64,000 nt of DNA. It comes from Plumapathes pennacea (taxonomy: Eukaryota > Cnidaria > Anthozoa > Antipatharia > Myriopathidae). The position numbers and the translations under genes were made by a program. The notes under the pieces are model-generated. The model made no database searches and was not told where the DNA came from. It saw only the letters and a list, made by a program, of their open reading frames with translations. Numbering within the stretch: position 1 is the first letter of the stretch; every line of letters starts with the position of its first letter. The stretch is taken from NCBI GenBank assembly GCA_964036295.1, contig OZ038462.1, positions 17,923,264 through 17,987,263 on the forward strand, in the 5' to 3' direction. This document shows positions 48,301 to 64,000 of this stretch, one piece after another.

Positions 48301-49455
48301 ACTTTTCCTTTAAGTTTTTCAACAGAAATATATAATACAGTATGTTGAATTTGGCTTTTGATACTTTCTCAGTTTACAGCTGATTATCCTATCAATTCCC
48401 GCTACACATATAACACAGTTCCTTCTCACAAGGCCGGGAGAATATCTGTTTTGAGCTTGAGAGTGGAAGGGTTAACACATGTATTGTGTTTCTCTTTCAG
48501 TTGACTTTCACGGTGAAAGATTTAGATCAAGACGTGCTATGTATCACAGTGTTTGATAGGGATTTCTTCTCACCAAACGGTTAGTTACCAGTGCTTCACG
48601 TTCCTTTAGGTTGTGTCGTCAGAGCTTGGGAGCCTGGCCATAAAAGTGGTCTAAGCTGACGTTTCGAGCATAAGCTCTTCGTTGGAGCAAGCACAAGGGC
48701 TAACGCTTGAAAACACAGCACAAAACCACCTTTTTGGCGTTCAGTTTTGTTGCTACATAATACTAATGTTAATATTTTAATATAACTAGTTCTCACAGGG
48801 ACTACATTCAATGACAAAAGTTCTTGAGACACTTTCAAAAACTGAAGTATCTCAGATACAAGTCATTGATTAACGGTACTGAAAGGCGCGAAACCATTTT
48901 TCTCTCCCCCCTCCCTCCCCTCTGTACAATGTTGCGTGTGTTTGGAAAAACAAGTTCAGGCCACTTCAACATTGACCGGGGGAGGGGGGTGGTGGTTCAA
49001 CTGAAACAGTAGAGAAATTACTGAAACTGTGCGAGTGTCCCAAGACTTTGGTCACTGATTGTAGCATTTCATGTTGTTGAATGTGTATTTATTGTCAGTT
49101 TCTTTGCGCCTCGTTTTGTTTGCTCGTTTGCTTACTCCTTTTATTTACTCAATTTTACGCCTCGTTTTTGTTTGCTAAGTTTGTTTACGCCTCGTTTTAT
49201 TTACTCTTCGCTCTGTTTACTCATTATGTCTACGTCTTGTTTTTGTCTGCTCAGTTTGTTTATGTACGTCTCCTTTTGTTTACTCATTTTGTTTACGCCT
49301 CGCTTTTAACGACAGATTTCCTGGGTCGAACGGAAGTCAGTATCGCCAGCTTGCTGAAGAAAGGCAAAGGTCCTTGGTGTGAAAGACTGCTACTTCATGA
49401 AGTATCCACTGGCGAAGTGCTCGTAAAGATCGAGCTGAAAATGCTTGAAAGATAA
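9694..49455 (+). CDS. ITSN: Intersectin, long form (39 coding exons, 1750 aa predicted)
   Basis: Intersectin is a cytoplasmic scaffold that links clathrin-mediated endocytosis to actin through Cdc42 activation. I assembled 39 exons whose junctions all obey GT..AG and keep one frame. The sum is 5253 nt, an exact multiple of three. Domain order is that of ITSN1/2-L: two EH domains (about aa 10-105 and 227-330), coiled coil (about 350-690), five SH3 domains (about 780-1240), DH (about 1268-1450), PH (about 1478-1615) and C2 (about 1625-1750). Predicted length 1750 aa compares with about 1720 for human ITSN1-L. The start is ATG 9694 (gct-ATG-G context), giving [15 protein letters not shown] just before EH1. 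TAA is at 49453-49455. Exon coordinates are in the domain entries. Introns carry many transposons, and an antisense GPCR sits in the intron before exon 37. Confidence 0.95.
9880..13130 (+). other. Intersectin intron 2 (3.25 kb)
   Basis: No further exon was recognised. The AT-rich sequence includes a short inverted pair CAAGC..GCTTG near 11310-11360 and a probable transposon remnant at about 12007-12736. Small open frames here lack family features. Confidence 0.6.
12007..12736. repeat. Possible pogo/Tigger-type non-autonomous element
   Basis: The left end reads TATAGTGGAATCCCTA and the right end TTGGATTCCACTGTAG, an inverted pair AGTGGAATCC/GGATTCCACT about 730 bp apart. Next to each end are CGATTTTTCAAACCC-like blocks, a style seen in pogo-like DNA transposons. 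No transposase is visible. The class is an inference from the ends. Confidence 0.4.
14373..15676 (-). mobile_element. 1.3-kb interspersed element, copy 2, in intersectin intron 3
   Basis: This is the second copy of the element at 3402-4712. Both start (on +) CTAGAAATACGATAATCGCA and remain alignable to GCATTAACGTCGTAAATATT near the right end. Copy 2 has an added (CA)n run at about 15564-15583. On the - strand it again ends CTAG|T. Remnant - strand peptide frames correspond to those of copy 1. It is intronic and antisense to intersectin. Confidence 0.6.
17022..18128 (+). CDS. ITSN: Intersectin exons 5-6: EH2 domain
   Basis: Exons are 17022-17085 and 17884-18128. They continue EH2: [20 protein letters not shown], Trp split over the junction, then [20 protein letters not shown] with an intact D-x-D-x-D-G-x-L calcium loop and the LLPPSY tail that closes EH domains. 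A Ser/Arg/Gly-rich segment (about 35 residues) follows. EH2 in intersectins binds NPF-type ligands such as epsin and the stonin family. Exon 5 is 64 bp with the same phases as exon 3. Confidence 0.93.
17241..17272. repeat. (AT)n microsatellite
   Basis: About 15 uninterrupted AT dinucleotides in intersectin intron 5, directly followed by the repeat at 17275-17400. Confidence 0.95.
17275..17400. repeat. Dispersed repeat shared with 51050-51240
   Basis: The words GCCATATAGGTATGTGCCGC, GGGTATCATTT.CAGCATTTT and TTTGGTC.GAAA occur in the same order here and at 51050-51190. Each copy follows a simple repeat ((AT)n here, poly(G) there). Family unknown. Confidence 0.7.
18382..22744 (+). CDS. ITSN: Intersectin exons 7-13: coiled-coil (KLERQ) region
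   Basis: Exons are 18382-18644, 19133-19282, 19421-19561, 20041-20125, 20659-20798, 21532-21724 and 22463-22744. Exon 7 starts with [20 protein letters not shown], the conserved block that opens the coiled coil in human ITSN1 (TFEDKRKENFERG). It continues as a Glu/Arg/Lys/Gln-rich helix. Exon 8 has [18 protein letters not shown], matching the human sequence in order. Exon 9 contains SKEMRIAEI. The region mediates dimerisation and binds Eps15 and SNAP-type partners in vertebrates. Exon 13 ends in a Gln-rich stretch leading to SH3A. Confidence 0.92.
18790..19010 (+). repeat. SINE-like dispersed repeat, copy a
   Basis: Blocks AATCAGCAGTGCGAGAA, CACTTGCTT, GGTTT.GCTTTTGTTC, GCATACGCAA and CACACGATTACTTTC.ACAGTC occur here and in the same order at 24650-24962. 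An inverted copy is at 42685-42985. About 300 bp when complete. Confidence 0.7.
20225..20295. repeat. G-rich tract
   Basis: A run of about 20 G followed by several GTGGGAGG and GGGG groups lies in intersectin intron 10, close to exon 10. Open frames predicted across it are artefacts of the homopolymer. It has G-quadruplex potential on the transcribed RNA. Confidence 0.85.
21066..21441. repeat. Foldback MITE-like element
   Basis: Perfect 21-bp terminal inverted repeats (TTAAGGTCTCGATAAAGGTT at 21066; its complement ends at 21441), with imperfect pairing inward (for example TACACGTAC..GTACGTGTA). About 376 bp, in intersectin intron 11. Confidence 0.85.
21725..22462 (+). other. Intersectin intron 12
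   Basis: Contains a poly(A) tract near 22374-22391 and no recognisable exon or element otherwise. Confidence 0.6.
23085..23811 (+). CDS. ITSN: Intersectin exons 14-15: SH3A domain
   Basis: Exons are 23085-23200 and 23533-23811. They give [25 protein letters not shown], then [20 protein letters not shown] and [12 protein letters not shown]. The ALYDY-like, WL (here PPGWLHG) and FPxNY motifs needed for proline-rich ligand binding are present. In vertebrates SH3A binds dynamin, SOS and N-WASP and has an extended n-Src loop, as here (PDYKNAPPG). A Thr/Ser/Gln-rich linker of about 60 residues follows in exon 15. Confidence 0.93.
23268..23430. repeat. Dispersed repeat fragment with CGAAACGTCA block
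   Basis: CTGAGGAAGATTTCGCGCTCG followed by AAACGTCA resembles blocks at 48650-48700 and 62840-62875 (TTTCGA with a CGTCGGAGCA or TCTTCGTTGGAGCA block). It looks like a scattered old repeat family, possibly Penelope- or SINE-related; class not established. Confidence 0.4.
24010..24165. repeat. Short imperfect tandem repeat
   Basis: Four imperfect copies of a unit near 40 bp carrying TTTTAC.AGGTTGCTTTGCG lie in intersectin intron 15. Confidence 0.65.
24351..24571 (+). CDS. ITSN: Intersectin exon 16: SH3B domain
   Basis: A single exon encodes the whole SH3[40 protein letters not shown], and [12 protein letters not shown]. The AKKxxHLxF...EQQxxWW...[12 protein letters not shown] signature is specific for the second SH3 of intersectin, where human reads WTAKKDNHLNF. 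The exon ends in phase 2. It was probably an independent binding module for proline-rich partners such as SHIP2-type proteins in vertebrates. Confidence 0.94.
24572..25936 (+). other. Intersectin intron 16
   Basis: Holds the SINE-like copy and, at 25150-25520, several scattered copies of AGCTCTCGTAAGCGACC, an imperfect short repeat. No exon seen. Confidence 0.6.
24650..24962 (+). repeat. SINE-like dispersed repeat, copy b (most complete)
   Basis: The copy starts with AACCAAATCCAAAGCAACCA and contains CCTAATCAGCAGTGCGAGAA and GTCACACGATTACTTTCGAC. It ends near a GTTGTTGTTATTG tail, which suggests a SINE 3' tail. Related to 18790-19010 and, inverted, 42685-42985. Confidence 0.7.
25937..26064 (+). 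CDS. ITSN: Intersectin exon 17: Pro/Ala-rich linker
   Basis: This 128-bp exon joins SH3B and SH3C and encodes an alternating Pro/Ala segment ([18 protein letters not shown]). The frame was chosen because it is the only one free of stops that also fits the phases on both sides (preceding GG + G). Linker length varies widely among intersectins. Confidence 0.85.
26163..26418. repeat. MITE with 32-bp terminal inverted repeats
   Basis: GACCCATTAGCACTTACCAT at 26163 is mirrored at 26387-26418; 31 of 32 positions pair. About 256 bp, in intersectin intron 17. Confidence 0.9.
26577..26746 (+). CDS. ITSN: Intersectin exon 18: SH3C domain
   Basis: One exon encodes [40 protein letters not shown] and PANYVKKV, a complete SH3 with AMYxY, WW and FPxNY motifs. 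It aligns to the third SH3 of human intersectin (EYIAMYTYESSEQGDLTF). Vertebrate SH3C binds dynamin and synaptojanin. Confidence 0.94.
26782..27258. repeat. Nested foldback element
   Basis: Outer arms (about 26782-26890 and 27148-27258) share TCACATGA.CCAAAA, CACGTGACT, GGAAAGAGCATCG and GTAGACATGCAAA in inverted order. Inner arms (26925-26970 and 27020-27055) pair around AAATTCACATGCGTCGAAT. So a hairpin sits inside a hairpin. No protein. Confidence 0.85.
27261..27478. repeat. MITE with GCCGTGTTTACA terminal repeats
   Basis: The ends GCCGTGTTTACATGAGAGAC and the complement of GTCTCGTGTAAACACGGC are inverted. The interior repeats GGTAAATG/CATTTACC in both orientations. It abuts the preceding foldback within 3 bp. 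Confidence 0.85.
27662..29414 (+). CDS. ITSN: Intersectin exons 19-21: SH3D domain (with 31-bp microexon)
   Basis: Exons are 27662-27692 (31 bp), 28283-28404 and 29274-29414. The microexon encodes [10 protein letters not shown] and leads into [40 protein letters not shown] and [19 protein letters not shown]. The ARGKKRQ insertion before the FP motif is diagnostic of intersectin SH3D (human [19 protein letters not shown]). The canonical FPxNY is FPSSH here, so the Asn-Tyr pair of the binding groove is replaced. A Ser/Thr/Pro linker follows. Confidence 0.93.
28500..28600. repeat. Low-complexity (CAA)n/GGGACCCTTAC repeat
   Basis: AAAGGGGGACCCTTAC occurs twice, with a third diverged copy (AAGGTACCCTTAC), separated by poly(A) and (CAA)n. 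Confidence 0.7.
28640..28930. repeat. Tandem copies of a short dispersed repeat
   Basis: Three copies with GAGCTTTCATTTGAGTGGTC, a CCTTTAGGTT block and GACAGTTCAGGAGT lie about 90-140 bp apart. Single or inverted copies occur near 30610, 33905-34020, 50150-50240 and 53030-53085. Unit about 75 bp; unknown family. Confidence 0.65.
29012..29041. repeat. C-rich tract
   Basis: Runs of 7 to 10 C interrupted by A in intersectin intron 20. Confidence 0.9.
29903..30462 (+). CDS. ITSN: Intersectin exons 22-23: SH3E domain
   Basis: Exons are 29903-29942 (40 bp) and 30265-30462. They encode a 13-residue linker, then [40 protein letters not shown] and [12 protein letters not shown], a complete fifth SH3 matching human SH3E (CQVIGMYDYTAQNDDELAF). 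In vertebrates SH3E binds N-WASP and CdGAP and helps hold the DH domain in check. Reading through the donor at 30463 gives Cys-Lys-stop, the expected architecture for a short isoform ending after SH3E. Confidence 0.94.
31368..31451. repeat. Short hairpin, perfect 20-bp arms
   Basis: ACTCTGGTCCCAGAGGTTTC at 31368-31387 is exactly mirrored at 31432-31451, around a 44-nt loop. The arm itself is partly palindromic (CTGGTCCCAGAGG). Foldback or MITE core. Confidence 0.9.
31730..32190. repeat. Imperfect tandem repeat, about 105-bp unit
   Basis: Four diverged copies contain TTTCTTTCTCGTCATGGGG, TTCATTT, GCTACAGCTCTG and ACTTGGCTGT in order. An open frame on the - strand merely reflects the repeat. 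Confidence 0.75.
33597..33694. repeat. Two long G-runs
   Basis: Runs of about 18 and 20 G, 40 bp apart, with G-quadruplex potential on the sense RNA. Confidence 0.9.
36320..36455 (+). CDS. ITSN: Candidate alternative first exon for a DH-PH-C2 isoform of intersectin
   Basis: ATG 36320 lies in a good context (acg-ATG-G) and opens 45 codons plus one base, ending at a donor GTATGT. The phase (1 base left over) is exactly the one needed to splice to exon 24 at 37984, giving ..[19 protein letters not shown]. The peptide is strongly basic ([20 protein letters not shown], then [13 protein letters not shown]). The frame is also open upstream to an ATG at 36191. As an internal cassette exon it would bring a stop in the phase set by exon 23, so a first exon is the only coding use consistent with the frame. 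Not verified by any transcript. Confidence 0.45.
37984..41392 (+). CDS. ITSN: Intersectin exons 24-30: DH (RhoGEF) domain
   Basis: Exons are 37984-38048, 38685-38857, 39791-39863, 40215-40322, 40501-40599, 40957-41040 and 41309-41392. Together they give [20 protein letters not shown] (conserved region 1, with the catalytic-face Glu), [54 protein letters not shown] (conserved region 3) and [20 protein letters not shown]. This aligns along its whole length with the Cdc42-specific DH of human ITSN1-L. All internal exons from 27 on are phase 0. It exchanges GDP for GTP on Cdc42 at the membrane to drive actin assembly. Confidence 0.94.
38280..38580. repeat. Dispersed repeat, copy a (AGTCAGCGATCATTGCAC)
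   Basis: The words GCGATCACCTTATTTTGAGT, CAGCGATCATTGCACAAAAC, AAGAAACTCAA, TCTATGACATAA and CGCTGACCAACG.ACTTGACG recur in order at 57720-58065; a shorter copy is at 47605-47715. A family of about 300 bp. Confidence 0.7.
38645..38680. repeat. (CTT)n tract before exon 25
   Basis: About nine CTT units form the polypyrimidine tract directly upstream of the acceptor of intersectin exon 25. Confidence 0.9.
38989..39670. repeat. 23-bp minisatellite with 7-unit higher-order structure
   Basis: About 30 nearly identical copies of a 23-bp unit (AAATATAACAACTAGAATAT + ACC). The only frequent variant is T or C at the 13th base (ACTAG/ACCAG). Its order includes TTTCCCC, TTTCCCC, then TTTCTCC, so a 161-bp higher-order unit has been copied. 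One unit near 39145 has AAC for ACC. Because 23 is not a multiple of 3, the array has no stops on the - strand and yields spurious Tyr/Ile/Leu-rich frames. It sits in the intron between DH exons 25 and 26. Confidence 0.95.
41664..43110 (+). CDS. ITSN: Intersectin exons 31-35: PH domain
   Basis: Exons are 41664-41735, 42069-42215, 42437-42482, 42590-42662 and 43028-43110. They encode [40 protein letters not shown] (the [14 protein letters not shown] block of human), [26 protein letters not shown] and the closing helix [16 protein letters not shown] with the invariant Trp. The PH domain packs against DH and binds phosphoinositides. A charged linker ([12 protein letters not shown]) leads to C2. 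Confidence 0.93.
42273..42315. repeat. (ATC)n microsatellite
   Basis: About 13 CAT/ATC units in intersectin intron 32. Confidence 0.95.
42685..42985 (-). repeat. SINE-like dispersed repeat, copy c (inverted)
   Basis: On the - strand it carries GCAGTGCGAGAACACGCC, ACTTCTAATTGG-type A/T box blocks and the CAATCACACA end shared with 24650-24962. It lies in the intron before the last PH exon. A weaker relative may lie at 49790-50000. Confidence 0.65.
43607..43693 (+). CDS. ITSN: Intersectin exon 36: start of C2 domain
   Basis: Encodes [20 protein letters not shown] and VDLHAADPN, the first strand of C2 (human: GRLMVNVVEGIELKP). Ends in phase 1 at a GTAAGA donor. The next coding exon is 4.2 kb downstream, beyond the antisense GPCR. 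Confidence 0.92.
45522..45527 (-). terminator. Candidate polyadenylation signal of the GPCR
   Basis: TTTATT on + is AATAAA on -, about 47 bases after the GPCR stop codon. Position and orientation fit a short 3' UTR. Confidence 0.45.
45574..46485 (-). CDS. Class A (rhodopsin-like) G protein-coupled receptor, intronless
   Basis: A 303-aa single-exon receptor with seven hydrophobic segments. Family marks: GTAGN in TM1 (Asn33), LANLAVAD in TM2 (Asp61), Cys89 at the top of TM3 paired with Cys166 in loop 2, ERY at 115-117, Trp143 in TM4, Pro248 in TM6 and NPFVY at 278-282 in TM7. The TM6 motif is CFVP instead of CWxP, so the toggle Trp is replaced by Phe. N-glycosylation is possible at Asn2 (NDT). 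The C-tail is short with a final Cys. The overall look is peptide-receptor-like, but the ligand cannot be named. ATG 46483-46485 has A at -3. It lies antisense inside an intersectin intron, so the two genes would not share exons. Lack of introns is common among cnidarian GPCRs and fits retroposition origin. Confidence 0.92.
   Translation of the reverse strand: MNDTVGWNSRTMTIDVALMPVYAFIVLLGTAGNSLVISVVRTKRSMKSTTNILLANLAVADLLTLIWCMPAVTMRFVPHPSGNLGDFFCKFITMHLVSGITLVVSGLTLALISVERYKALMRPMDMHRLLTTHNVRYAIALIWGVAIVLVAPLFIFENYSEELKACVIYWPVIQAAPFYWGALALIVIGALLIITLCYFSIIRGMFFSDTVFSSSVQSASAREDARSKKRIVFMLLTVTVLFLVCFVPFIMGSAFMVLTSSVFYKVSTFLVYSNCAFNPFVYAFASSNYRIAFREVLQNLKLC
47605..47715. repeat. Dispersed repeat, copy b (partial)
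   Basis: GAGTCAGCAGTCATTGCACA, GGATTCAAGTGTAG and GTGTTTCCGCGGTGACCGC match parts of the repeats at 38280-38580 and 57720-58065. Confidence 0.6.
47871..49455 (+). CDS. ITSN: Intersectin exons 37-39: C2 domain and C-terminus
   Basis: Exons are 47871-47965, 48501-48579 and 49316-49455. They encode [50 protein letters not shown] and [17 protein letters not shown], then [18 protein letters not shown] and the stop. The SDPYC, NPKWN and D-x-D-x-F-x-x-D-DFLG motifs are the Ca2+/lipid-binding loops of a C2 domain, and the human order is identical. The C2 ends at the protein C-terminus as in ITSN1-L. Confidence 0.94.
47990..48018. repeat. Poly(C)/poly(T) tract
   Basis: About 18 C followed by T-run, directly after intersectin exon 37. 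Confidence 0.9.
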
Positions 49456-50940
49456 TGGAAGGGATGTGGGTTCATTTGTTACCCTTTGTGGGCAACTATG
49501 AAATTCGTACCAGTATTCCCCGGTCCGCATTGGCCTGATCGCGCCAGCATAGTCTCTTGAGGCGGCGGAGAATGGAAGCGGCTAAGAATATGTCGTGTTT
49601 AAAATAGACTCTTTGCTTCGGGGTTCAAGCGACCTAAGTGTTTAGAGAAGTGGCTTCTTTATTCTAGTTAACTGTGGATTGGGTAAGGTCTTTATGGTTA
49701 CTTCTCTTACTATTATCGTACGTACTGGAAATAAGGTTTTAACGATTTCGACGGATGTTAAATGTTTGAAGTAAGTTTAAAACATCTGACCAATCAGTGT
49801 GAAGCTGTGTTTTTGGTTTAACCGGATCGTCACGACAGCCAGCAACTAGTACGTTGTACGGAATGCTTGTTGACCAAGATACTCTGGCTTCTGGTTGGTT
49901 GGAAATGTTCTTACGACTTCTGAGACTGGCGTTATATTTTGTCCAATTGGTTGACAGTTTCGTGCGGCGTGTGCGATTCGTCAGCTCACGAGAGCCAAAA
50001 CCTATTTGTGACATACACTGTTTATGGAGAATTCAAGGGTTTAGCGATCTTTCTTTAGAAACGCTGCACATACAGTTATAGCTCTTTTTGTGGGGTGGAA
50101 TCAATCGTTTGAATTTCTGAGTATCCTTTCACTGCTAAACTCAGTATGGAAACGCCCAACTCCTGAACTGTCACTGAACTTACTATCATTGTCCAGCCGA
50201 AATGAAACCTAAAGATGTAACCACTCAAACGAAAGCAACAGAATGTTCACGTTTTCGTTCAGTATAATCCATGCTTTGGTAGTATACTGTCGACAGTGAA
50301 CGAGTCAGTCTACATTTAAAGAACTTTTGACTAGGATTATGTCTGTCTTAACACTATATAGTTACTTGTGTTTCAGTTAAGTACGAGAAAATCTAAAAAA
50401 AAGGTGCAAATATTATACGTCTAATAAGAACTCCAATTTTTTTTCAAGTAGACACAAGAAAATGAGTTTTTTTTATAGAACTGAATAATGTAAAGAAGCC
50501 TGTCATATTTTTTTGCTCATTGATATGTCGTTTGAAGACAGAAATGTAAATAGAAGGATTTGGTTATTCAGCATCAATCTATTTTATTGTTCTATATGTG
50601 TTCATGACATACTGGAAAGCCTTTTATATCGTTTTTCATAACTCGCTGCTTGAATACTTAAATATCAAACTAAACATAAAAGGGTGCAAGTCTTGACGTC
50701 GTATAGTACAGTTAATATTAATCTCGTAGCAACTCTTAGCATAAAGCGACTATGAAGTATATTTAGGCTTAACTTGCTTATTAAATTTTATATTAAGGAA
50801 TACATGTATCTTGGTTCAGGTGGTTGTTTTGTTTGTCCGATTCCTTGTTTGTTTGTTTTCTATGCGCTCGTGCGTCCAAGATGCATTATTTAAAATATGA
50901 TGTGATGAATAAATGATTCATAAATAAAGTTCCAGTAACG
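49456..50940 (+). other. ITSN: Intersectin 3' UTR
   Basis: About 1.5 kb from the stop to tandem AATAAA signals. It includes a degenerate copy of the SINE-like family (about 49790-50000, inverted) and a copy of the GAGTGGTC repeat (50150-50240, inverted). Extent is inferred from the signals, not from transcripts. Confidence 0.5.
50909..50928 (+). terminator. ITSN: Tandem polyadenylation signals of intersectin
   Basis: AATAAA at 50909-50914 and again at 50923-50928, the only strong pair found downstream of the intersectin stop. Confidence 0.55.
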
Positions 50941-51029
50941 AATTACAAAATGTCTACCACAAACGTAATAAGTTGTGAACGTGATTATGGTATTATTGTC
51001 TTCATTACAGCAACAGTACAGTCAACTGT

Positions 51030-51240
51030 CTGGGGGGGGGGGGGGGGGGTTACTCCCATCTATGTGCCATATAGGTATGTGCCGCCCAAATGGGTATCAT
51101 TTTCAGCATTTTAGTCAATTTTAACCTTTAGTCTGGAATAGGGTCGGAGATTTTGATATTTGGTCTGAAATCAACCCCCCAATGTGTCTGCCTTAGAGAT
51201 AGTTCATGTGACCTGAAACCCGAACTTCAAAACTGAAACC
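51030..51240. repeat. Poly(G) tract and dispersed repeat shared with 17275-17400
   Basis: A run of about 18 G followed by TACTCCCATCTATGTGCCAT and the GGGTATCATTTTCAGCATTT block. Same family as in intersectin intron 5. Confidence 0.75.
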
Positions 51241-52300
51241 AGTTTCTTATTACAGTGTACAATGTAATCACATGACGGACCGGTTGAGTCTCTTTTAGTC
51301 CTAACGGAATCCAACACAGCTCATTCGCATTTTGAACGTTTGTGAATTAACTTTAATAGCAAACTCGTTTGTGCCACCCTTGGTATTTTACTTGGAGTCA
51401 GGGTTCATAACCTTTCAATGCGAAAAAATATTTCCAAGTACAAGCTTTAAGGTGTTCCAGAGGCTGTGGCCTGGGGCCAATTCAATAAAGCCTATACAAG
51501 TGTATTTTACAAGTTGGACTAACTCCTCTGCACGTTAAAACAGTTACACTTTAATCCAGTAATATGGCTCAAAACTGTTACAGTTATGCATGCGGAGACC
51601 AGTATCTGTAATATTTTGCAGACTTTTGCTTGATTAGAGTCCATTTAGTGGTGTTTGAATAATGGCCCGACTTGTAAAATACACGTGTAAATGTTTATTG
51701 AATTGGCCCCTGGATAGCAAGGTTGCATGGACAAAGAAAACAAGAAGTCGGATTAAAACTGCCGTTGATCGAAACCAAGACGAGAAAATGCGAAAGAAGA
51801 ATGCAAATGACTCTAGTAGCTCCCTACTGTCAGGTCCACATTTTATTGTGCTAATTTTCTATAACATACGTTGTGCACAAAAAAAGCAAACCTCGAAAAC
51901 GCTGTAGCATGAACGGAGAAATAAATTCCAAAAATGGCAAAAAAAAGTTGCATTTTCAAAATACAGCGAACAAGTGTGGAGAGGGCCCCAGTAAAACACT
52001 GGCATCAGGATATTGGAATGAAAGTGGATGCCCAGCATGTTTTATTAATGGTATTATTTCTATTCGCATTTAAATGCTTATACAGCTGGTTTTAGAAAAA
52101 GCGAAATCTGTTTAAAAATTAATACCCGCTGTAATTAATTCGCACGCTCGAAAAATGTTCTGGGTTCCAGTATCTTTGCCTAACACTAAATCATTCCTCA
52201 GCAAGTTGATGAACCAAGTAGGTTTAGTAAGTTTTTTTGTTTTTCGACCATTGTTAGCTCTTGATAAATTGGGGTAATTCTTTAATGATTTTAGTGTTCA
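51241..52300. other. Intergenic region between intersectin and TMEM117
   Basis: No gene recognised. Small open frames lack homology or compositional support. The segment CTTGTAAAATACACGTGTA at 51670 is mirrored by GTGTATTTTACAAGTTGGA at 51500, with AATTCAATAAAGCC at 51479 mirrored near 51700. This suggests a further diverged foldback between about 51450 and 51720. Confidence 0.5.
51465..51720. repeat. Foldback element upstream of TMEM117
   Basis: GGGGCCAATTCAATAAA (51474) pairs with TTTATTGAATTGGCCCC (51695-51711), and GTGTATTTTACAAGT pairs with ACTTGTAAAATACACG. The spacer also has AACTGTTACAGTTATG-type symmetry. MITE-like. Confidence 0.8.
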
Positions 52301-52304
52301 TATG

Positions 52305-52318
52305 GTAGCCATAGCAAC
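52305..52318 (+). promoter_or_regulatory. X-box (RFX-binding site) in TMEM117 promoter
   Basis: GTAGCCATAGCAAC fits the RFX consensus (GTTGCCATGGCAAC, 12 of 14) with both half-sites and correct spacing. It is 64 bp upstream of ATG 52382. RFX sites at this distance from the start are typical of cilium-related promoters in animals. Not proven functional. Confidence 0.55.
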
Positions 52319-52381
52319 CTAGGCAAACACAATTCGAGTTTTTGCGACTCAACATTTCGTGCCGAGATAGCTCGGATCATT

Positions 52382-55300
52382 ATGGCGAGCAAAATTCACC
52401 CGGTATCTGTGACGTCGAAAGAACTACGTGAAATACAGAAACTTCACGAACTCGGGAAGAAATACTGGGTAAGTTTACGCCTTTCTCTCTTTTTTCCCAG
52501 TCGACACAGTTTACAGCTTGGTCTTGGTCGTTTTTGCATCTTTCGTTTTCTCGTACAATTAGTAGCACTTTCGGCATTCTTTCAGAACAGTTAGAGACAT
52601 ATGAAGCTAAGTGAAGGTGAGAATGAGAGTTCTCATTGTCAGCGTAAACACGTCGATCTAATTTTTTAAAGGAATTTCCAGTCTAAAAATGATGAATGTA
52701 CTAATGAAGTAGCTGATGAACCAGCATTTTTAGAACACAATCAGAGTTTAGTAGTTTGACGACATAAAATAATTTAAAAAATGTCAAATTGGTTTGGTGA
52801 CCTTCATTATTTACAGCAAACATAATAATGCTTCTAAATTGTTGACGAGAAATCAACGAGGATTTTATAGTCAACATTTATCATAAAACTACCACTTTAC
52901 AACTACCCGGCGAAATTATCAAGATTTCGGGCCTCAAACTCTTCCTCTTCCGCTGCTAAGTTTGTAACAAAATGGCACTGATAAAACTGTGAACTTCGCC
53001 AAACAACAATTGAGTAAATACTGCTATTAGAGTGTACTACTCATTGAGTGATTACACCTGGGTTTCATTTGACAATTCAGGAGAAGTTTTCAAGCTTATA
53101 TTGCCTCGTTTCAACAGCGTTAAATAGTTAAGTAAGGCATGTATAAGGCTGGAAAACTACACGCGAACCATCAGGCAATGGTTCTGTTCCCAAGGGCAAC
53201 CGAGGTGATTTATGTGGGATTAGCTTGCTTTATACAATATTATTTTTTACTTCTGCAGCCCGCACCTGACACTGTTAAGTTCAACGAGGAGGCGAAAAGA
53301 CCAGAACCGACTCGGTGGCGACACTACTTCAGACATCCTTACTCGAGGCTGTGCACGTCCTATTTGGTAGTGTTTTGTAATTTCCTGATTTTTGCGGAAG
53401 ATCCCGTCTCGCACAGTTACACCGAGTGCACTATCAACATCATCGGCGATATCTACACGTTTATGTGCATAAAGTGAGTAAGCGATTTTAAATTGTTATG
53501 TCTTTGCTTGAGTGTGTCCTTAATTTCTTCTAATTTTCTTTCAGCGTGTTTTTATTGCTAACTAGACTGGCCTTGCCAGTGAGCTCGCGGCGTGAGTTGG
53601 GTCGAGACCAGAATATAAAATGGAAAGTAGGGGACAAGAACGGAACTCCCAAGAGAGACTTCCAATTTCTTACCATAAAAATATCACACAGTATAGAGAA
53701 CTTGGCTTTTGACACCTTGCTCTTTTGACACCTTGATTAAACTAAAAATTATTATTACAACACTCATACACTTGCTTCTTAAAGGTTGAGCGACCCTGCA
53801 TCTTGAGAATGCGTGACATATATTTTTATGCACAATCGATTTTGACAGTTTGACCTTGACTCATATTTCTAATCAGAGGCCACGATTAATCCAGCCTTCG
53901 CTTCACTACTTATGTGTTTTCTTTTCTTAACTCAATACGTTTCTTCTATCAGGCTTTCGAGTATTCGTGCTCTGTAACAAATATAAAATTGAAAGCGAGG
54001 AATGTCACACGAGAGATGTTTACAATATTATTGCGCTTTTGTTCACAGTGTGTTCAGTCCATTTGTGACTGCAAACTCAATCCTCAGAATTATTTCGGTA
54101 TATTTTTCATTTCTGGTATTTAATGAACATTGCGAAACAAAGACTACATGATCGACTGAAAGAAACACTTCAACAGGCAATGTACGATACGCAGAAGAAT
54201 TTTATGAGGCAACAGATGTCATGTACAGAGTAAAGCATAAAGCGTCATTGTTTTACGGCTAAAGCTCACCGTAGCTTTGGTTTCTGTTTTCGCCCTGTTA
54301 TCTTCCCAAAAGTATTTCGTGTCGCCACAGAAAGTTTCGTCGGGACTAAATACTTATCGGCGATAGAGATATTTGCAATACCCCAGAAGTACCATCAAAC
54401 ATTTGTTTACGGCTATTCTCAAAGCTTGTGCGGTGAACGCCAGCCAAAATCTTTTCCTAAAATCCAGTTTATCCGTGCCTATTCCACAGAGCCAAATGGC
54501 GTTGAATTTGAATGGGATGCAGTTTACTTTTTCGCTTCACTACTTATATGTTTTCTTTTATTAACTCAATACGTTTCTTTCTATCAGGCTTTCGAGTATT
54601 CGTGCTCTGTAACAAATATAAAATTGACAGCGAGGAATGTCACACGAGAGATGTTTACAATATTATTGCGCTTTTGTTCACAGTGTGTTCAGTCCATTTG
54701 TGACTGCAAACTCAATCCTCAGAATTATTTCGGTGTATTTTTCATTTCTGGTATTCACTGACCATTGCGAAACAAAGGCTACATGATCGAATGAAAGAAA
54801 CACTTCAACAGGCAATGTACGATACGCAGAAGAATTTTATGAGGCAACAGATGTCATGTACAGAGTAAAGCATAAAGCGTCATTGTTTTACGGCTAAAGC
54901 TCACCGTAGCTTTGGTTTCTGCTTTCGCCCTGTTATCTTCCCAAAAGTATTTCGTGTCGCCACAGAAAGTTTCGTCGGGACTAAATATTTATCGGCGACA
55001 GCGGTACCATCAAATATTTGTTTACGGCTATAACAGCGGTCCATAACAGAATCCACAGAGCCAACTAAGGCAAGCAACGCGCAATTCCATCGCCCACATA
55101 TCTCCTTCAAAATGGCGAAACTGCTCGCCCGGCCACAGGCGGCCCAAGCTGATTGACTGTGTGACGTCACGGTTGGGTTTTATAAGCAAATGTATGGGAG
55201 ATTTTAGTCGATCGATAACTCGAAAAATATTGCGAGAATAAAGCTTAGACTTGCTAACCTTGTTGTTGTGGTGGTTTTCTTGCTGCTGTAGCGATTTCAG

Positions 55301-58300
55301 CGTGTCTCGCTGAATTTTTCCTCTCTAACAGAAAAAATTTCAAGGCTGGCAACTCGGTCGATCTGGCATCCAGAATGGCTCCAGAAAAGTCTCTCAAATG
55401 CGGCCTTTCAACCTCCGTATGGCCACAAAACCCAGACATATGTCGAGTTGAATCCTTTTCCCATAAGACTGTCGCAAAAAAATTTCGAAAACGCCAGTTG
55501 AGTCCGAAGAAATTGCCGAAATCGGCCGTCAAAATGGTTTCTGACAAGCCGTGAGGCCCACTCTTGGTCCACGGAAATGGCGTTTGAATTTCATGTCGAG
55601 CTCTGATTCGCTGCCTCTTTCGCATGCTAATTCAATTTACCGCGACACCGGGGAGGGGCAAGGCTACATTTGTATTAACCTTTGTGTATCGCATGAAGAA
55701 GTATGACAATTAGGCTTTGAAAACATCTCGGAAACAGCAACATCTCAAAACGTCAACAAAAACATTTCTCGGCTAGGTGAAAAGCCGGCATCGCTCCTAT
55801 TGGCCTGCGCGAGACAATGGTTGTGACAATAATCCTCCCCTGGAGCCCGGGGTTCGTTTCAAAATCCGACTACAAATGTAGCCTTGCCCCTCCCCGGTGT
55901 CGCGGTAAATTGAATTAGCATGCGAAAGAGGCAGCGAATCAGAGCTCGACATGAAATTCAAACGCCATTTCCGTGGACCAAGAGTGGTCCTCACGGCTTG
56001 TCAGAAACCATTTTGACGGCCGATTTCGGCAATTTCTTCGGACTCAACTGGCGTTTTCGAAATTTTTTTGCGACAGTCTTATGGGAAAAGGATTCAACTC
56101 GACATATGTCTGGGTTTTGTGGCCATACGGAGGTTGAAAGGCCGCATTTGAGAGACTTTTCTGGAGCCATTCTGGATGCCAGATCGACCGAGTTGCCAGC
56201 CTTGAAATTTTTTCTGTTAGAGAGGAAAAATTCAGCGAGACACGCTGAAATCGCTACAGCAGCAAGAAAACCACCACAACAACAAGGTTAGCAAGTCTAA
56301 GCTTTATTCTCGCAATATTTTTCGAGTTATCGATCGACTAAAATCTCCCATACATTTGCTTATAAAACCCAACCGTGACGTCACACAGTCAATCAGCTTG
56401 GGCCGCCTGTGGCCCGGCAAGTCATGTGATGACAAAACGTCATCATAAATCACGTGAAAATATGAACCAATCACCGTGTGCTGATTCGTAACCCAGAAAA
56501 AAAATAAAAATAAAAATAATAAAAATAAAAATATGACGATGATGAAGACACGCTTTCCAATCCTAAGCTCGTCGGCTTCGCCACGAGCAATTATAAAACG
56601 GTTCTTTAACCACTTGGAGCGTGGGTAGTATCATGGCTATTTCATAAACTAATACAACAACACTGCACAAAATAGTACGGCATAGCACCAAAACACACTA
56701 TAACACATAAAAAGCAGAAGAGCACAGTAAAACAGCAGAGCAGAGCGCAGCACAGCAAAGCATGTCACAGCACGGAAAACACAAACACATCACAGCACAA
56801 CACAAAACGACAGCAAAGAATAGCACAACACAGCAAAACACAACACGACACAGTACAGTAGAGTACAGCGCAGCACCACACTACACTACACTACACAGCA
56901 ACACAGTAAGTAACACAACACCCCACCATACTACACCACTATTCACCGAATAAATCACTATCACTTTAAGCTTATTTCATTAACTGTATAATCAGGTGGA
57001 TAGCGCTATCCATTCTATAAACAATTTAGGCCAGTAGACGCTTACCATAATCAATTTGTCCAAATATGACAGGTGGCCCAGTGGATCCTTCATCGCCCTT
57101 AAACTCGGCTGTTGGCTGTTTGCTGTTCTGCTAGGACTGTTAGTTGGCAAGTTCATTGTTCACAAATGGATCTTCTGCAAAAAGCTTAAACTGAAGGTTT
57201 TCACAGAAGATGGACAAGGTTCGTGGATGGTGATGTTCATGACCACTGTTATGTCGCTGTACATATTCAGCTTTGCTTACAACGGCTTCCTCATGCTGGA
57301 GGGAAAATACATGGACAGACTGCATGCCAGTCCGCGCATGCGCATGCAGAATCAAACGTTCATGAAACTTGCAGCCCTCGGCACATGGCTTGGAGATTTC
57401 CTCACCGCCTGGATGGTCACTGATATGATGCTTCAGGTAAAGCCTAGTCCTCACTAGTGCATGAGAATGCTTGTGATAAGTATACGCACAAGACAGGGAC
57501 AGTGACGACATTGGAATAAGCCGCATAGGATCAAACATGCCCGTCCCTTATGCTTGTGCTTTATGTCGCCACTGTCGCTCTCTTGTGCTTACGCTAATGC
57601 TCGTGTGCTAGGGAAGAACAGGCTTAAAAGGAATCGACGCATTTGCCTAGTGGTGTTGTTGAAAGGAGGGGTTTGCTTCTCGACACTTCTTAAGTGTGTT
57701 CTTTCATAGCACGCTGAAAAGTGCTCTATGGAAGACCGCGGAAATACGTTTTTCATCCTTGCGGTCACCTTGCTTTTGAGTCAGCGGTTATTGTTTAAAG
57801 CCGTGGATTCAAGTGCACATAGTAAATAGTAACGCTCGTAAAACCTCAAGACTTCAATACTTGGACAAACCAAGAAACTCAATACTTGGACTTGATACTC
57901 AACAATAAGTTACTTTAAGTTACTTCAGTTCATTTTCTACAACATAATCTTTGCACAAGAAAAACGAGGCTTGCACACGATATGAAATCTTACCTCGAAT
58001 TACGAGAAGTTAGATAGCCATGGCGACGAACACTGACCAACGCTGACGTCAATGGGTTGTGAGAAGTGTGCTTCTGTAAAGTGAAGTCAACTAGAGCGCT
58101 GCATGGTCTAGTGTAGTCTATTGTGAAAGTTGTTGTACTTTGTGAAGTATAGTGTTATCTGGTAATACGTATAGTGTGCAATACAATGTCTGCCAATATA
58201 ATATCATATGTGGTGCCGTTTTATGCAACGAATACTCACAGGAAATAGTTTTACATTACAATCTAATGTAGTGCGTATTTCTTGTGTCCCCTGCCCTCCC

Positions 58301-59705
58301 CTGCAGGGAGTGAAGTATCCCCACTGGGCCGGTGGTTTGCGGAAGATCTGGAAACAAGGTTTGAACCGTGTGTACGCGTTTTGGTTCATAACCCTCGGCA
58401 TGACCGCGGTGGTGATCACGGGAATTACCACGGATTTTGTTGACTGGGACAAGATGAGTCAAAACTTCGTGTCGTCAAACGAGATAGCGCGTGCCTTTTT
58501 GGCGTCCTTTATCCTCGTCATGGATCTGCTCATCGTGTTACAGGTACAGTCTGCGTGACGCCTTTTGTGACATACCGCGTGACACTGAAATAACATTTCA
58601 ATGGTAAAACAAACAAAAAAGGTTTGTAATACTGTAAATGCTCTAATAAGCTCCCTTCTCTGAAAAGCCCCTTCCCCTCTAGAAGGTATTTTTTTAAATA
58701 AGACCCCTCCCCCCCCCCCCCCCCCCGTTTACTTGCTGTCGACTTTGAGCGCAAAAATTAGTACACTAGAAACAAGAAAAATTACACGCATCAGATGTTT
58801 GGGTATAAATGTTTGAACATTAAATTTCTCTCATCCCCGCTACAAGTTCACTTTTAGAGCATTTACGGTGAGTCAATAACAACAGTCTACAAAATATTTT
58901 CACAAAATTTTGTGTGTGTTCTAAATAAAGGCCACTTTACATGGCCCGAATCCAAAATTGTACAGTGTAAATAGAGAGAGCATCGTGTATACTTACTGGT
59001 GTCTCACCTCTGTTTCAAAATGAGCCAGAGTTAGCATCGTGTCGCTAAGGTGTTTGTTTCCTGAAGGACTGGGAATTCCCTCACTTCGCCGGCTCACTCG
59101 ACATCAAACTCCCCGGAATGAACACGGACTCCATGAGCTTCCGCCTCCCCTCGTGCTGCGGTCGGGAGCCACTAGACGTCTACATTACCGGGAAATGGTT
59201 CAACTACGGCATCATCTTCATCGTCATGATCCTAGACTTGAATATGTGGAAGAATCAGATCTTCTACTCGCCATACGAGTACGGTCAATACACCGACGCT
59301 GAGGGCTTCATCTACACAGTGGCTGACAAACAGTTCCTAAGATGGGCTGACAAAAGCATGATGACTTACGAGTGGCGATGGGGTCACGTGAACCCGAAGA
59401 CCAACAGGACTTATGGGATTGATGACCACCGAATGAACGCCAAATACAAAGGCTACAGTTTGATTTTGAAAGGTTTGGCCTTTATCCCCTCCATTACTGC
59501 ATTCTGTTTGTTCGGATACCTTCTGTGGGTCTTTGGTCAAGAGGAGAACCCGGATGATGCTTTAGTGCGCAAGTACAGATGTGACGTCAGACGACGTCGG
59601 CAGTTGGCGCGATTAAGGAAAAAGAGGAAACTGAAGGTCAGGCGGCGTCGAGTGGCCGCACTGCAGGCTGCAAGTCTACAGGCTGCTGGTGTGGTAAGTG
59701 ACTGA
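52382..59705 (+). CDS. TMEM117: TMEM117-like eight-pass membrane protein, unit 1 (5 exons, 513 aa)
   Basis: Exons are 52382-52468, 53259-53473, 57073-57436, 58307-58543 and 59067-59705. All junctions are GT..AG with consistent phases, 1542 nt including TGA. The family signatures are YFRHPYSR...FCNFLIFAEDPVSHSY, EDGQGSWMVMF, FMKLAALGTWLGDFLTAWMV, RAFLASFILVMDLLIVLQ, DWEFPHF and KWFNYGIIF...LDLNMWKNQI, in the order of human TMEM117 (514 aa). Eight hydrophobic segments are visible. Human TMEM117 is a plasma-membrane protein linked to ER-stress-induced mitochondrial death; mechanism unclear. Exon 1 (MASKIHPVSVTSKELREIQK..) is extra N-terminal sequence relative to human. The C-tail is very basic (RRRRQLARLRKKRKLKVRRR). 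Exon 3 starts at AG|G 57073, chosen because it is the only acceptor that restores frame. A donor GTG|GTAAGT at 59694 lies just before the stop, so the end may differ (see findings). Confidence 0.9.
53897..54998. repeat. Direct tandem duplication, about 468 bp per copy
   Basis: 53897-54364 and 54531-54998 match nearly base for base (offset 634). After a short gap the similarity resumes (CATCAAA.ATTTGTTTACGGC). Both copies keep a frame reading FVLCNKYKI.SEECHTRDVY, NIIALLFTVCSVH, then stop, and farther on LKETLQQAMYDTQKNFMRQQ. They may derive from an old coding exon, but no family was recognised. Confidence 0.85.
55254..55625 (-). pseudogene. Hypothetical 123-aa frame, left arm of inverted repeat
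   Basis: An open frame identical at the protein level to that at 55920-56291. No known domain. It is rich in Arg, Phe and Ala with a basic start and a PPQQQG end. Preservation on both arms follows from arm identity and does not itself prove coding. Confidence 0.3.
55920..56291 (+). pseudogene. Hypothetical 123-aa frame, right arm of inverted repeat
   Basis: The mirror of the frame at 55254-55625, with the same translation. It lies in sense orientation inside TMEM117 intron 2. No upstream acceptor with matching phase was identified, so use as an exon is not supported. Confidence 0.3.
56495..56945. repeat. (AAAAT)n and degenerate (CACAG)n/(ACAAC)n low-complexity DNA
   Basis: An AAAATAAAAAT run is followed by several hundred bases built from ACAGC, ACAAC and ACACT words. 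It is a decayed pentanucleotide satellite. The Gln/Thr/His-rich frame across it is spurious. Confidence 0.85.
57720..58065. repeat. Dispersed repeat, copy c
   Basis: Same ordered blocks as 38280-38580: GAGTCAGCGGTTATTG, AAGAAACTCAA, TTCTACAACATAATC, CTCGAATTACGAGAAGTTAG and GACCAACGCTGACGTC. Located in intron 3 of TMEM117 unit 1. Confidence 0.7.
58700..58728. repeat. Poly(C) tract
   Basis: About 19 C residues in TMEM117 unit 1 intron 4. Confidence 0.9.
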
Positions 59706-60411
59706 ACAGTACGAAATGTCGGCCCTGCAAAACCTTCGAAAGCTACTTTTACCTCACAAGCAAACACAGTATATTGGTGATAAGCGAGGTGCAGTATACA
59801 ACTAATCTTGTATTGGTGGATCGAAAATTTAAGGTGGCCTAAAATTTCCAGTTGAAAACGCTCTGCAGGCAAATGCTTTGAGCTGTCTTTATGGCTATTC
59901 AAATCGTGAGCAATGACTTGCTTCCACCTTGCAACTATTACGACGGAATGTTCCATAATACTAGGCTAAGTTAGATTGGAATTCATAAAATCTTTAGTCA
60001 CGACTACAAGTCTTGCTTGACCAAAACCCTCATACCATCGAATGATCAGACTTTTTGAGTTTGAGTTTACTAGTGTTCCATTTCTTGTACGTTCTCGGAC
60101 GTAAACAATGCAACAAATTGATTGAAACGGTCTCGGACTCATAATGTAAATTTGGGCCTAAGTAATGGTTATACAAGCTCAAAAACCTAACACAGCTTCA
60201 TCATAGCATTTCTTTTTTCTTTGTACATTTACAACTTTTAAACAGCTCGCAAGCGGTACTTTGTAACCGATGAATATTGTGTAAGTCGCTACCAAACTTA
60301 AAAAAGACGCCGTCTCTGGATGCTTTAGTACTTTATGACTCGGATACTCACTTTGAGTGGATACTCAAATGAGAATTCATGTTATACGAAATGGTCTCAA
60401 TTCCTTCGCAG
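59706..60411. other. Junction between the two TMEM117 units
   Basis: 706 bp with no AATAAA or ATTAAA seen, no recognisable first exon and no obvious promoter element. An ATG at 60379 (and one at 60391 in good context) continues in frame into the next exon. An in-frame TGA lies two codons before the first of these. Confidence 0.6.
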
Positions 60412-63400
60412 CCATTGGGAAATCTTCCACAACGGACCCGTCGAGACCAAACGCGGAAAGACGCAAATGAAACGACCCTGAACATCACGCTTGACGAAGA
60501 AGCAGAAGCAGACACAACGCCTGAAGAAACCGCAGAACCAGCGAAGACCAGAAAAAGCCTCGTGTACTACTTCCGCCATCCGTACTCACGCATCTGTACT
60601 TCGTATTTAATCGTGTTTTGCAACTTCTTGATTTTCGCCGAGGACCCCGTTTCGCACAGTTACAGTGACTGTATCATTGATATAATTGGGAACATGTACT
60701 CGTTTGTGTTTTCAAGGTATGTGATTGGTCTAAAATTCCTCGCCCTTCCAGGCCTGCGCATGTGCCACAAAGCTGACCAGTTTTGCGTGCAGGCACAATG
60801 ACAAACTCTTTTCCAGGAAACTTTGATCCTGTTTATTTGTGGGTAACCAAGAACAGCCATGACTTGCAGCTTGCGACAGCGCAAACTTGCAACTTGTTTG
60901 ATCACCGTGCGTAGAGGAGTGTCAAAGGATTATCAAGAGGGATTTCTTTTTTTACCTTTGATGCAATTTTTTCATTAAAAATTTGTACAGTGGTGAATAG
61001 CGAATTCCGCTTACATCCAATATAGCCGACACGTCCTGATTACTCTTTCACTTCTAAGAATGATCAGCTTTAATGTTCTCCTTTAATTTGTCGCCAGAAA
61101 AATAACATTCAGTATGAAGAACTTGGCTTTTGATACCTTGCAGATGACAACTGATTCTCATTGTATCACTCATAGATTTTCCTTTCGAATCGGGAGAATC
61201 TGCATTATGTATCTGCATTATGAACCAGTGGTAAATAAAGCAACGAGGCGCTCGCAGAGTTATGGGCCTTTTCCCCTAATTGTACTTTTTGAGGGCGCTG
61301 ATTGGCTGATAAGTGACAAGGATGAGAGCTGAACACTTCATTTTTTGTCGTATTTCCAGATACCCGCCACACGCCGGTTACGTAGCTTTGAAAATCTTCA
61401 TGTTCACCTCTGCAGCCATCGCAGGAATGCTGGTCGGCAAATATTTCCTTCACAAGTTCCTGCTTTGTCGAGTCTTCAAACTCAAGATGTTCTCTGAAGA
61501 TGGTCAGGGTTCGTGGATGGTGATGTTCCTGACAGTTCTCCTCTTTCTATTCATGTGGAGTTTTGTTTACAGTGAGTTCCTGCTGCTGGCCGGCCCTGAA
61601 TACGAGGCGTACGTCGCTTCGAGCAACTTGGGCATTGAGAACCAGACTTTCATGAAACTGGCCGCCATGGGAACGTGGCTGGGGGATTTTCTCACGGCCT
61701 GGATGGTCACTGACATGATGCTACAGGTGCGTTAAGGGAGGGCTCTTACCGATCCTCGTTTATTAAACCGAGGATATTGTGCAAACTAGTTCAACAGTTC
61801 TCGACAATGTGCACATTTTCTGTTCCATCCGAAGTTTACCATGTCTGTATTGATTCCAAGCATTGTTTTGCTAAAAGTTCCTGTAGAACTGAAATCAGGT
61901 CCCTGATAAATAAGAAGCTTACGAGCAGAGTTGAATGCCCTGCGCGGTAAACTGACAACACTACATGCGATGAGTCTGGTAGTAACGGCAAATGATAGCC
62001 AGAGGCCATTTACATCGTGTGCGACATAGCGACAACAGGTAAACTCCAAACAACGCCGAAAAGTAGATCCACTGCTAATTTCAACGCCATACAATATTAA
62101 ATTAAGGACAATTTGGTACTAGGTAATCGACCGTTGACTTTCTTTTCAGCTAGTATGCAACCAATAGTAGAAATCAGAGGCCATATTCGTAAAAAATTTG
62201 AGCACAAAAAAAAATTTTGTATGACTTACATGCACATCGAAACAATGACTTACGCAAGCTATCTTGCACAAAAATAGTAGTATGCACAAGTCCTTACGAA
62301 CACTTTTCTACGCACGGAAATTCTGTGACTCCCCATGCCCCCGGCGGGAGCGTTGCTTCGGTTGAGGGTCCCAGTCATGCTTGTATTTGCATATACATCC
62401 AGGCATAAGATATGATCAGATAAAATCCTAATATAAATATTACTACTATCATTTTACAGGAAGACGATTACCCACAGTGGAGTCCTGGCCTCAGGAGGTT
62501 CTGGAGGCGTGGTCTTAACCGCGTGTACGCCTTTTGGTTTGTCAGTTTCAGCATGTCGGCTGTCGTAGCAACCGCTATCAAAACTGACTACCTGGACTGG
62601 GACCGGATCAGCCGGGACTTCATGCCCACAAACGAACTGTCAAGAGCGTTCCTGGCCTCTTTCATCCTCGTCATGGACCTCTTGATTGTCATGCAGGTAA
62701 ACGAGTAGTGTATAGCAGCCGTGGAAAGCTTCATGTCTTCATACAATGGAATGTTAGTACTTGGGAGAAGTAGTTTTTAACTGCGTCAGCGCGGAGGAAT
62801 GTGTATAATGAATCAACTGGGACGCCGTTAAGAAATCTGAGCTGATGTTTCGATCGTTCCCTCCGTCGGAGCAAGTAAGAAATTGTGGGTAAGGAGGGGC
62901 TATATAAAGGGTCGGTTAAAGACTGAAGAGGTCACTCGCAAAATCTTACTTGAGTGCGAATTTCTGAAGCGTCGTGTTTCGGCGCGAGATTCACGGCTCA
63001 CATCAAATCGCGCGCTTCTTCACACAGCACTGTTTTGCTAATATAACTCACGCAGGGAGTGGCTGCTGCCGAACAGGCAGAATTATCACGTCAACAACCT
63101 ACAATAGCTCTTCTACAACAGTATTCATACTTATCTATTTATTCGTTTTTCTTCTGTCTCTATCCCTTTTTTATCTTGTAGGACTGGGAATTTCCTCATT
63201 TTGCGGGGGGAATGAACATCAAGCTTCCAGGCGTGAACACGGGAGACATCAAATTTCACCTGCCCGGTGGAGACGTCCACATTTCCGGAAAATGGTTTAA
63301 CTACGGCATCATCTTCATCGTCATGATCCTAGACTTGAACATGTGGAAAAACCAGATATACTACGAGCCCTTCGTCTACGGGCAATACACCGATAAAGAT

Positions 63401-64000
63401 GGCTATATCTACACTGTCAGTGACAGAGATTTCATTGCCAACGCCACTACAACCACGCTGAGTTACGCATGGCGATGGAGTCACACCAATCCGCTGACCA
63501 ACCAAACGTACGGACCGCTTGACCACAAGATGAATTCTAGATTCCTCGGGTTTCCATTCAGAATCAAAGGAATAGCATTCTTTCCATCGTTGCTTGGTTT
63601 TGCGATGTTTGGACTTCTCGCGAAGCTCTTTTCCAGCGAGAAGCAAACTTCGAAAATTAAACCGAACCACAGGGAGGCTTCCGATAGTGATATGGCACTG
63701 CAAAGCCTCTCTCATCTTCAAGACGAAGAAGCAACCATCGGAGATATTGTCCCGCCAGATCTGCAAGAGAACGAGGCAACTTCGAGGGGAGGTGACGCGG
63801 CAAGCACTAGTGACGTCATGTCAAGGAAAGATGACGCAACAGACAGAGTGTCTGTAGGGTTTGGAGAGGGCCTGGAGAAAGATGAGGACCACATGGAGGA
63901 TCTACTCGACTTTCAGAGGAGCATAGATGCCGACCTTGCTGACGGACGATCAGAAGCTAGTGTAAGGCATCCAAGGTCCTCTGGAAGCCTTCGAAGAAAA
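60412..64000 (+). CDS. TMEM117: TMEM117-like membrane protein, unit 2 (partial; runs off window)
   Basis: Exons are 60412-60716, 61360-61726, 62460-62696 and 63182-64000 (open at the edge). The phases and lengths copy unit 1 (237 bp in both for the third of these; 364 and 367 for the second). Signatures: YYFRHPYSRICTSYLIVFCN, FAEDPVSHSY, EDGQGSWMVMF, FMKLAAMGTWLGDFLTAW, RAFLASFILVMDLLIVMQ, DWEFPHFAGGMNIKLPG and GKWFNYGIIFIVMILDLNMW. The N-terminal part carries an acidic Thr/Glu segment. The C-tail is long and acidic (DEDHMEDLLDFQRSIDADLA), unlike the basic tail of unit 1. The start may be ATG 60379/60391, or the exon may be spliced onto unit 1. The acceptor at 60411 (TTCCTTCGCAG) is phase 0. 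A possible donor AGT|GTAAGG occurs at 63961. Confidence 0.88.

Follow-up and report, generated by a model that had tools for sequence, protein, structure and literature searches.

The plus strand of contig OZ038462.1 of Plumapathes pennacea carries two complete TMEM117 units arranged head to tail, 706 bases apart, and the most likely reading of their sequence, to which we give an even chance, is a single transcription unit encoding a fused double TMEM117. Splicing would link the last exon of unit 1, from 59693, to the core exon that opens unit 2 at 60412 (coordinates are those of the window, the whole 64,000-nucleotide stretch analysed, positions 17923264-17987263 of the contig), yielding a protein of 1201 residues that contains both TMEM117 domains complete, one after the other. 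As a sequence feature, the splice junction 59693^60412 is strong but unproven; its use, as well as the membrane topology and the function of a fused product, is what we infer.

Three TMEM117 copies in the genome

A search with the TMEM117 profile (PF15113) over the whole 290-Mb genome, in 24 contigs, returned twelve exon matches, which belong to three genes, two in the window and one on contig C2. The domain is full-length in both units of the window: against a curated cut-off of 27 bits, unit 1 scores 679 bits (profile positions 2-410 of 411) and unit 2 664 bits (positions 3-410). The C2 copy scores 680 bits and is nearly full-length as well.

Unit 1 alone encodes 513 amino acids in five exons. 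The first, at 52382-52468 (MASKIHPV...KKYW, ending in phase 0), is putative; it is modelled, without homology support, as an ATG followed by a phase-0 donor (TGG/GTAAGT, 4.68 bits; the slash marks the splice site) and is the best of five such candidates in 50001-53259. The other four match PF15113: exon 2 at 53259-53473 (215 nt, containing the first transmembrane segment, TM1), exon 3 at 57073-57436, exon 4 at 58307-58543 and the last exon at 59067-59705, which has its stop codon TGA at 59703-59705 if unspliced and ends at 59693 if the donor there is used. The acceptor of exon 3 (57073) is weak (−2.22 bits, with 24% of AGs scoring as high), and the true junction near it, beside a repeat-filled intron, may be a different one.

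The core exons of unit 2, all matching PF15113, are located at 60412-60716 (305 nt), 61360-61726, 62460-62696 and 63182-64000; the last of these encodes a long polar tail and extends 348 nt past the end of the window, to a stop at 64348. Read from its own ATG (60391-60716, 61360-61726, 62460-62696 and 63182-64348), unit 2 encodes 698 amino acids. The third gene (C2:37255169-37258215, minus strand) has five exons, the first again putative, and encodes 513 amino acids. It resembles unit 1 in its intron phases (0,2,0,0) and in the identical lengths of exons 2 and 4, but differs from the window pair in that it is a plain single gene followed, 157 nt past its stop, by a cluster of AATAAA. The equivalent of exon 2 is 215 nt long in unit 1 and in the C2 gene and 305 nt, or 90 nt longer, in unit 2.

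Over 402 core columns, units 1 and 2 are 60.2% identical, unit 1 and the C2 copy 56.2%, and unit 2 and the C2 copy 58.7%. Synonymous sites are saturated among the three copies (pS 0.74-0.80), as against pN values of 0.25-0.27. By these measures the duplications are old and the tandem is constrained, and purifying selection seems to act on each of the three copies. We would expect a close relative to share the arrangement. That unit 2 kept an original long C-terminal tail which unit 1 lost was considered and rejected, since the tails of unit 2 and the C2 protein are no more similar than chance would make them (their score is reached in 746 of 1000 shuffles).

The candidate junction

Unit 1 ends in ...GCT GGT GTG/GTA AGT GAC TGA (...AAGV/VSD*). 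The candidate 5' splice site at 59694-59699, GTG/GTAAGT, lies in phase 0 exactly three codons before the stop, as the preliminary description had claimed, and scores 5.50 bits (5.495 before rounding). This places it in the top 0.47% of the 4033 GTs of the window and makes it the strongest GT of 59537-60411. The candidate 3' splice site at 60410-60411, TCAATTCCTTCGCAG/CCA, is likewise in phase 0 (...TTCCTTCGCAG/CCA in its wider context); at 4.38 bits it ranks first among the 32 AGs of 59740-60420, ahead of a runner-up at 0.16 bits, and is a good acceptor, as had been described. Across the junction the joined mRNA would read ...GCTGCTGGTGTG^CCATTGGGAAAT... The join leaves a frame open through both TMEM117 domains. 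At least 1086 codons had been described, which is the length up to position 64000; read past the window, the frame continues to 1201 amino acids, with its sole stop at its end.

The splice matrices used are approximate metazoan textbook values, and we compared the candidate intron (59694-60411, 718 nt; 59706-60378 would alternatively be intergenic spacer) with the remaining 11 introns in the models of the three genes, two of which depend on the putative first exons. These have donors of 1.35 to 7.09 bits, acceptors of −2.22 to 8.33 bits and lengths of 184-3599 nt (median 733), and the candidate lies within their range in all three respects. Only three of the 11 have a stronger donor, and seven an acceptor that scores at least as high. 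The terminal exons of unit 2 and the C2 gene contain no comparable donor, their best scoring 2.79 and −0.56 bits, respectively.

When the tail of unit 1 was resampled by codons, a phase-0 donor at least this strong arose in 1.2% of cases within the last 171 coding nucleotides and in 0.07% within the last 12. A phase-matched donor/acceptor pair this strong is expected by chance at 0.09% of comparable gene ends with minus-strand densities (8 donors and 46 acceptors as strong per 64000 nt) and at 0.31% with plus-strand densities (19 donors and 67 acceptors per 64000 nt, real sites included). With loose thresholds of 2 and 0 bits the expectation rises to 9%, so the argument for the junction is carried by the strength of the sites.

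A retrocopy of the joined mRNA was sought in the genome with a DNA query and with a 24-nt junction pattern allowing up to three mismatches; neither revealed one, a result that is uninformative for most genes. The linker protein sequence, searched against the genome, matched its own two exons only. An origin of the acceptor at 60411 as an inherited ancestral one is weakened by the 90 additional nucleotides of unit 2 in its equivalent of exon 2.

How unit 2 could start

Unit 2 does have possible starts of its own. Upstream of the acceptor, after an in-frame TGA at 60370, the stretch 60379-60411 contains in-frame ATGs at 60379, in weak context, and at 60391 (GAA ATG G), in strong context, with a purine at −3 and G at +4. 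These ATGs permit, without proving, a separate unit 2 gene. Among the 3709 AG sites of the window, 763 (21%) are preceded, within 120 nt and with no stop intervening, by an in-frame ATG, but 134 (3.6%) have, within the same distance, one with a purine at −3 and G at +4, which speaks for an independent start. This argument is softened by unit 1, in which the exon-2 acceptor (53258) also reads open upstream, to two in-frame ATGs, one at 53139 and one at 53178 (GCA ATG G, again in strong context); unit 1 too might start unspliced, at 53178, with an extra hydrophobic stretch before TM1. In the C2 gene no in-frame ATG precedes the exon-2 acceptor. This leaves two readings, one in which both units of the window start without splicing and one in which such ATGs are incidental.

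Downstream of the acceptor, reading from 60412, the first transmembrane segment of unit 2 is passed before any in-frame ATG is met, the first ATG there being out of frame; a full-length unit 2 made with acceptor 60411 therefore needs an upstream phase-0 coding exon. We could recognise no separate one, as had been reported. With a cut-off of −4 bits, the spacer offers three ATG-to-phase-0-GT candidates for a first exon, none convincing; none of their donors (0.12, 0.04 and −3.18 bits) reaches the lowest score among the 11 modelled ones (1.35 bits). It follows that acceptor 60411 is joined to an exon of unit 1, by the fusion or, less probably, by splicing from exon 1, or else is unused, with translation of unit 2 beginning at 60391 or 60379. 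The two-way choice drawn in the preliminary description is thus the right one.

The spacer

From the stop of unit 1 to the acceptor, the spacer (59706-60411) measures 706 nt. It was said to be free of AATAAA and ATTAAA, and both are indeed absent. Fourteen other hexamers were tried, of which CATAAA (59984), TTTAAA (60237) and AAAAAG (60301) occur. From the stop of unit 1, no AATAAA or ATTAAA is met for 1269 nt, compared with distances to the first of 157 nt in the C2 gene and 847 nt in unit 2. The absence is weak evidence, because both hexamers are missing from 311 of the 633 window segments of this length (706 nt) and the end of unit 2 itself has none for 847 nt. The observed/expected CpG ratio of the spacer (0.97, versus 0.37-1.17 in the introns) does not set it apart.

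Footprints of the duplication were sought around the junction. At E ≤ 1, 59706-60560 matches nothing in the introns of units 1 and 2, in 45000-52381 or in the downstream stretch; against the C2 region it gives two short matches, with E values of 0.03 and 0.10.

Neighbouring features

Part of the spacer, about 60224-60336, is 76-87% identical to four other places in the genome and lies some 55-170 nt before the possible start of unit 2; it is perhaps an old repeat. The unusually long intron 2 of unit 1 (3.6 kb) contains a 551-nt inverted repeat (55124-55674 and 55871-56421), the arms of which are 99% complementary and separated by 196 nt, and which resembles a foldback element or a sequence inserted recently. 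The same intron carries a 300-nt direct repeat (53944-54243 and 54579-54878, 98% identical). A dispersed repeat is present at 53664-53770; of 1110 candidate places in the genome, 40 were scored, and every one of these matches it at 99-100% identity. An older copy of part of this repeat, 82% identical, is found at 61085-61141 in the first intron of unit 2. The match between 53664-53720 and 61085-61141, the only strong one between introns of the two units, was consequently rejected as a trace of their duplication, the sequence being a dispersed repeat.

Further upstream, a single open frame of 335 codons on the minus strand (45577-46581) matches class A G protein-coupled receptors (PF00001, E 1.4e-43). 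It is situated between the TMEM117 units and a plus-strand region (about 15964-42374) with open frames for two EH domains and for SH3 and PH domains, in which four of the seven plus-strand frames scanned have a Pfam match. The domain order suggests an intersectin-like gene.

Weighing of the alternative readings

The locus may instead hold two ordinary tandem TMEM117 genes, a serious alternative that we nevertheless regard as rather doubtful. Unit 1 would then end at 59705, the promoter of unit 2 would lie in the 0.7-kb spacer, translation of unit 2 would start at 60391 (698 amino acids) or 60379 without a separate first exon, and the splice pair would be coincidental. This agrees with each unit being by itself a complete, constrained PF15113 protein (513 and 698 amino acids), with the strong context of ATG 60391 and the matching unspliced start of unit 1 at 53178, and with the third copy, on another contig, being a plain single gene. 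It must, however, accept a donor/acceptor pair of 0.09-0.31% chance and a spacer devoid of AATAAA and ATTAAA. Moreover, the C2 gene needs a separate first exon, since no in-frame ATG precedes its exon-2 acceptor, and unit 2 would have swapped this exon for a start in former intron or spacer sequence. Both the usable start at 60391 and the strong splice pair would find a role if separate genes were accompanied by regular read-through or an alternative isoform, with a promoter inside the spacer and a polyA site of low efficiency there giving rise to unit 1, unit 2 and the fused protein; CATAAA at 59984 fits such a site, but all three products are putative, and we consider this unlikely. Still less probable is a shared first exon, in which exon 1 of unit 1 (52382-52468), or another of its phase-0 exons, is alternatively spliced to 60412 and the two units serve as alternative bodies of a single gene. 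Exons 1, 3 and 4 of unit 1 do all end in phase 0, and joining 52468^60412 gives a 720-residue product in the frame of unit 2, but the donor at 59694 is then left unexplained and exon 1 is itself putative. A leader trans-spliced in an operon, or a first exon of unit 2 that is non-coding, would make use of the good acceptor at 60411; given that no in-frame ATG follows 60412 until past the first transmembrane segment, so that the leader itself would need one, the sequence nearly refutes this and we give it hardly any weight.

For the fusion, the splice pair contributes a likelihood ratio of roughly 55 to 190, obtained as 3/11 (donors) times 7/11 (acceptors) over 0.31% or 0.09%. Intron-like spacing together with the missing polyA signal adds an assumed factor of perhaps 5 to 10, while the strong-context start codon counts against fusion by a factor of roughly 14, assuming that half of real starts have such a context. 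With an assumed prior of 1-3% for the fusion of an old tandem pair, the resulting odds are about 1:5 to 4:1. Unit 1 also has its own stop and a complete domain, which speaks against fusion, as does the placement of acceptor 60411 away from the exact ancestral position, and fused gene models are a known annotation error, as reported for a lancelet annotation (PMC6071037). The preliminary description had proposed that the two units form one double-length protein with 16 transmembrane segments; what stands of this is a strong, intron-like splice pair that chance is unlikely to have produced, while the strong-context start of unit 2 at 60391 had been given too little weight.

Predicted topology and the TMEM117 family

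Human TMEM117 is described as a plasma-membrane protein with eight predicted passes, for which a cytosolic C-terminus and N-glycosylation at N353 and N371, between TM7 and TM8, were both tested in HeLa cells (PMC4938508). All three copies here have sequons in this loop: N414 in unit 1, N397 and N417 in unit 2, and N378 and N396 in the C2 protein. Kyte-Doolittle analysis (19-residue window, threshold 1.4) gives seven clear peaks, not eight, for each of units 1 and 2, 14 for the fusion and eight for the C2 protein, the last of these in its C-terminal tail. The candidate is like the family in that each unit covers nearly the whole 411-position profile and has TM7-8 sequons as the human protein does, and unlike it in consisting of two units where the C2 copy and, as described, the human protein (PMC4938508) are single ones.

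On the fusion reading, which the topology of the human protein fits, a single 16-pass product is plausible. Given an even number of passes per unit, as predicted for human TMEM117, unit 2 would enter the membrane in the same, normal orientation as unit 1, and the stretch of about 100 residues between them, basic and then acidic (26 K/R and 16 D/E in 104 residues), would be a cytosolic linker. The likely consequence would be that the TMEM117 modules are covalently tied in a fixed 1:1 ratio and, if TMEM117 works as a dimer, form a built-in heterodimer. To a stable double TMEM117 of about 1200 residues, with sixteen passes, a basic-acidic cytosolic linker and the character of a heterodimer built genetically from an old duplication, we assign slightly less than an even chance.

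Two-pore channels and four-domain sodium and calcium channels are tandem-duplicated membrane proteins fused into one chain. The candidate would be like them in its repeated membrane modules, cytosolic linker and fixed stoichiometry; shared ancestry is not claimed. No solved structure of a TMEM117 relative was found by sequence search, and the literature matches listed for TMEM117 include no double TMEM117 protein. In viral and prokaryote contig collections, pattern searches for relatives gave 24, 600, 45 and 40 matches, none confirmed by tblastn, as expected for an animal gene.

If the two units are not fused, the locus is a clean example of old tandem copies that gene predictors are able to fuse. 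If the fused protein is real, it would suggest that TMEM117 works as a pair, and would provide a natural covalent dimer for structural work.
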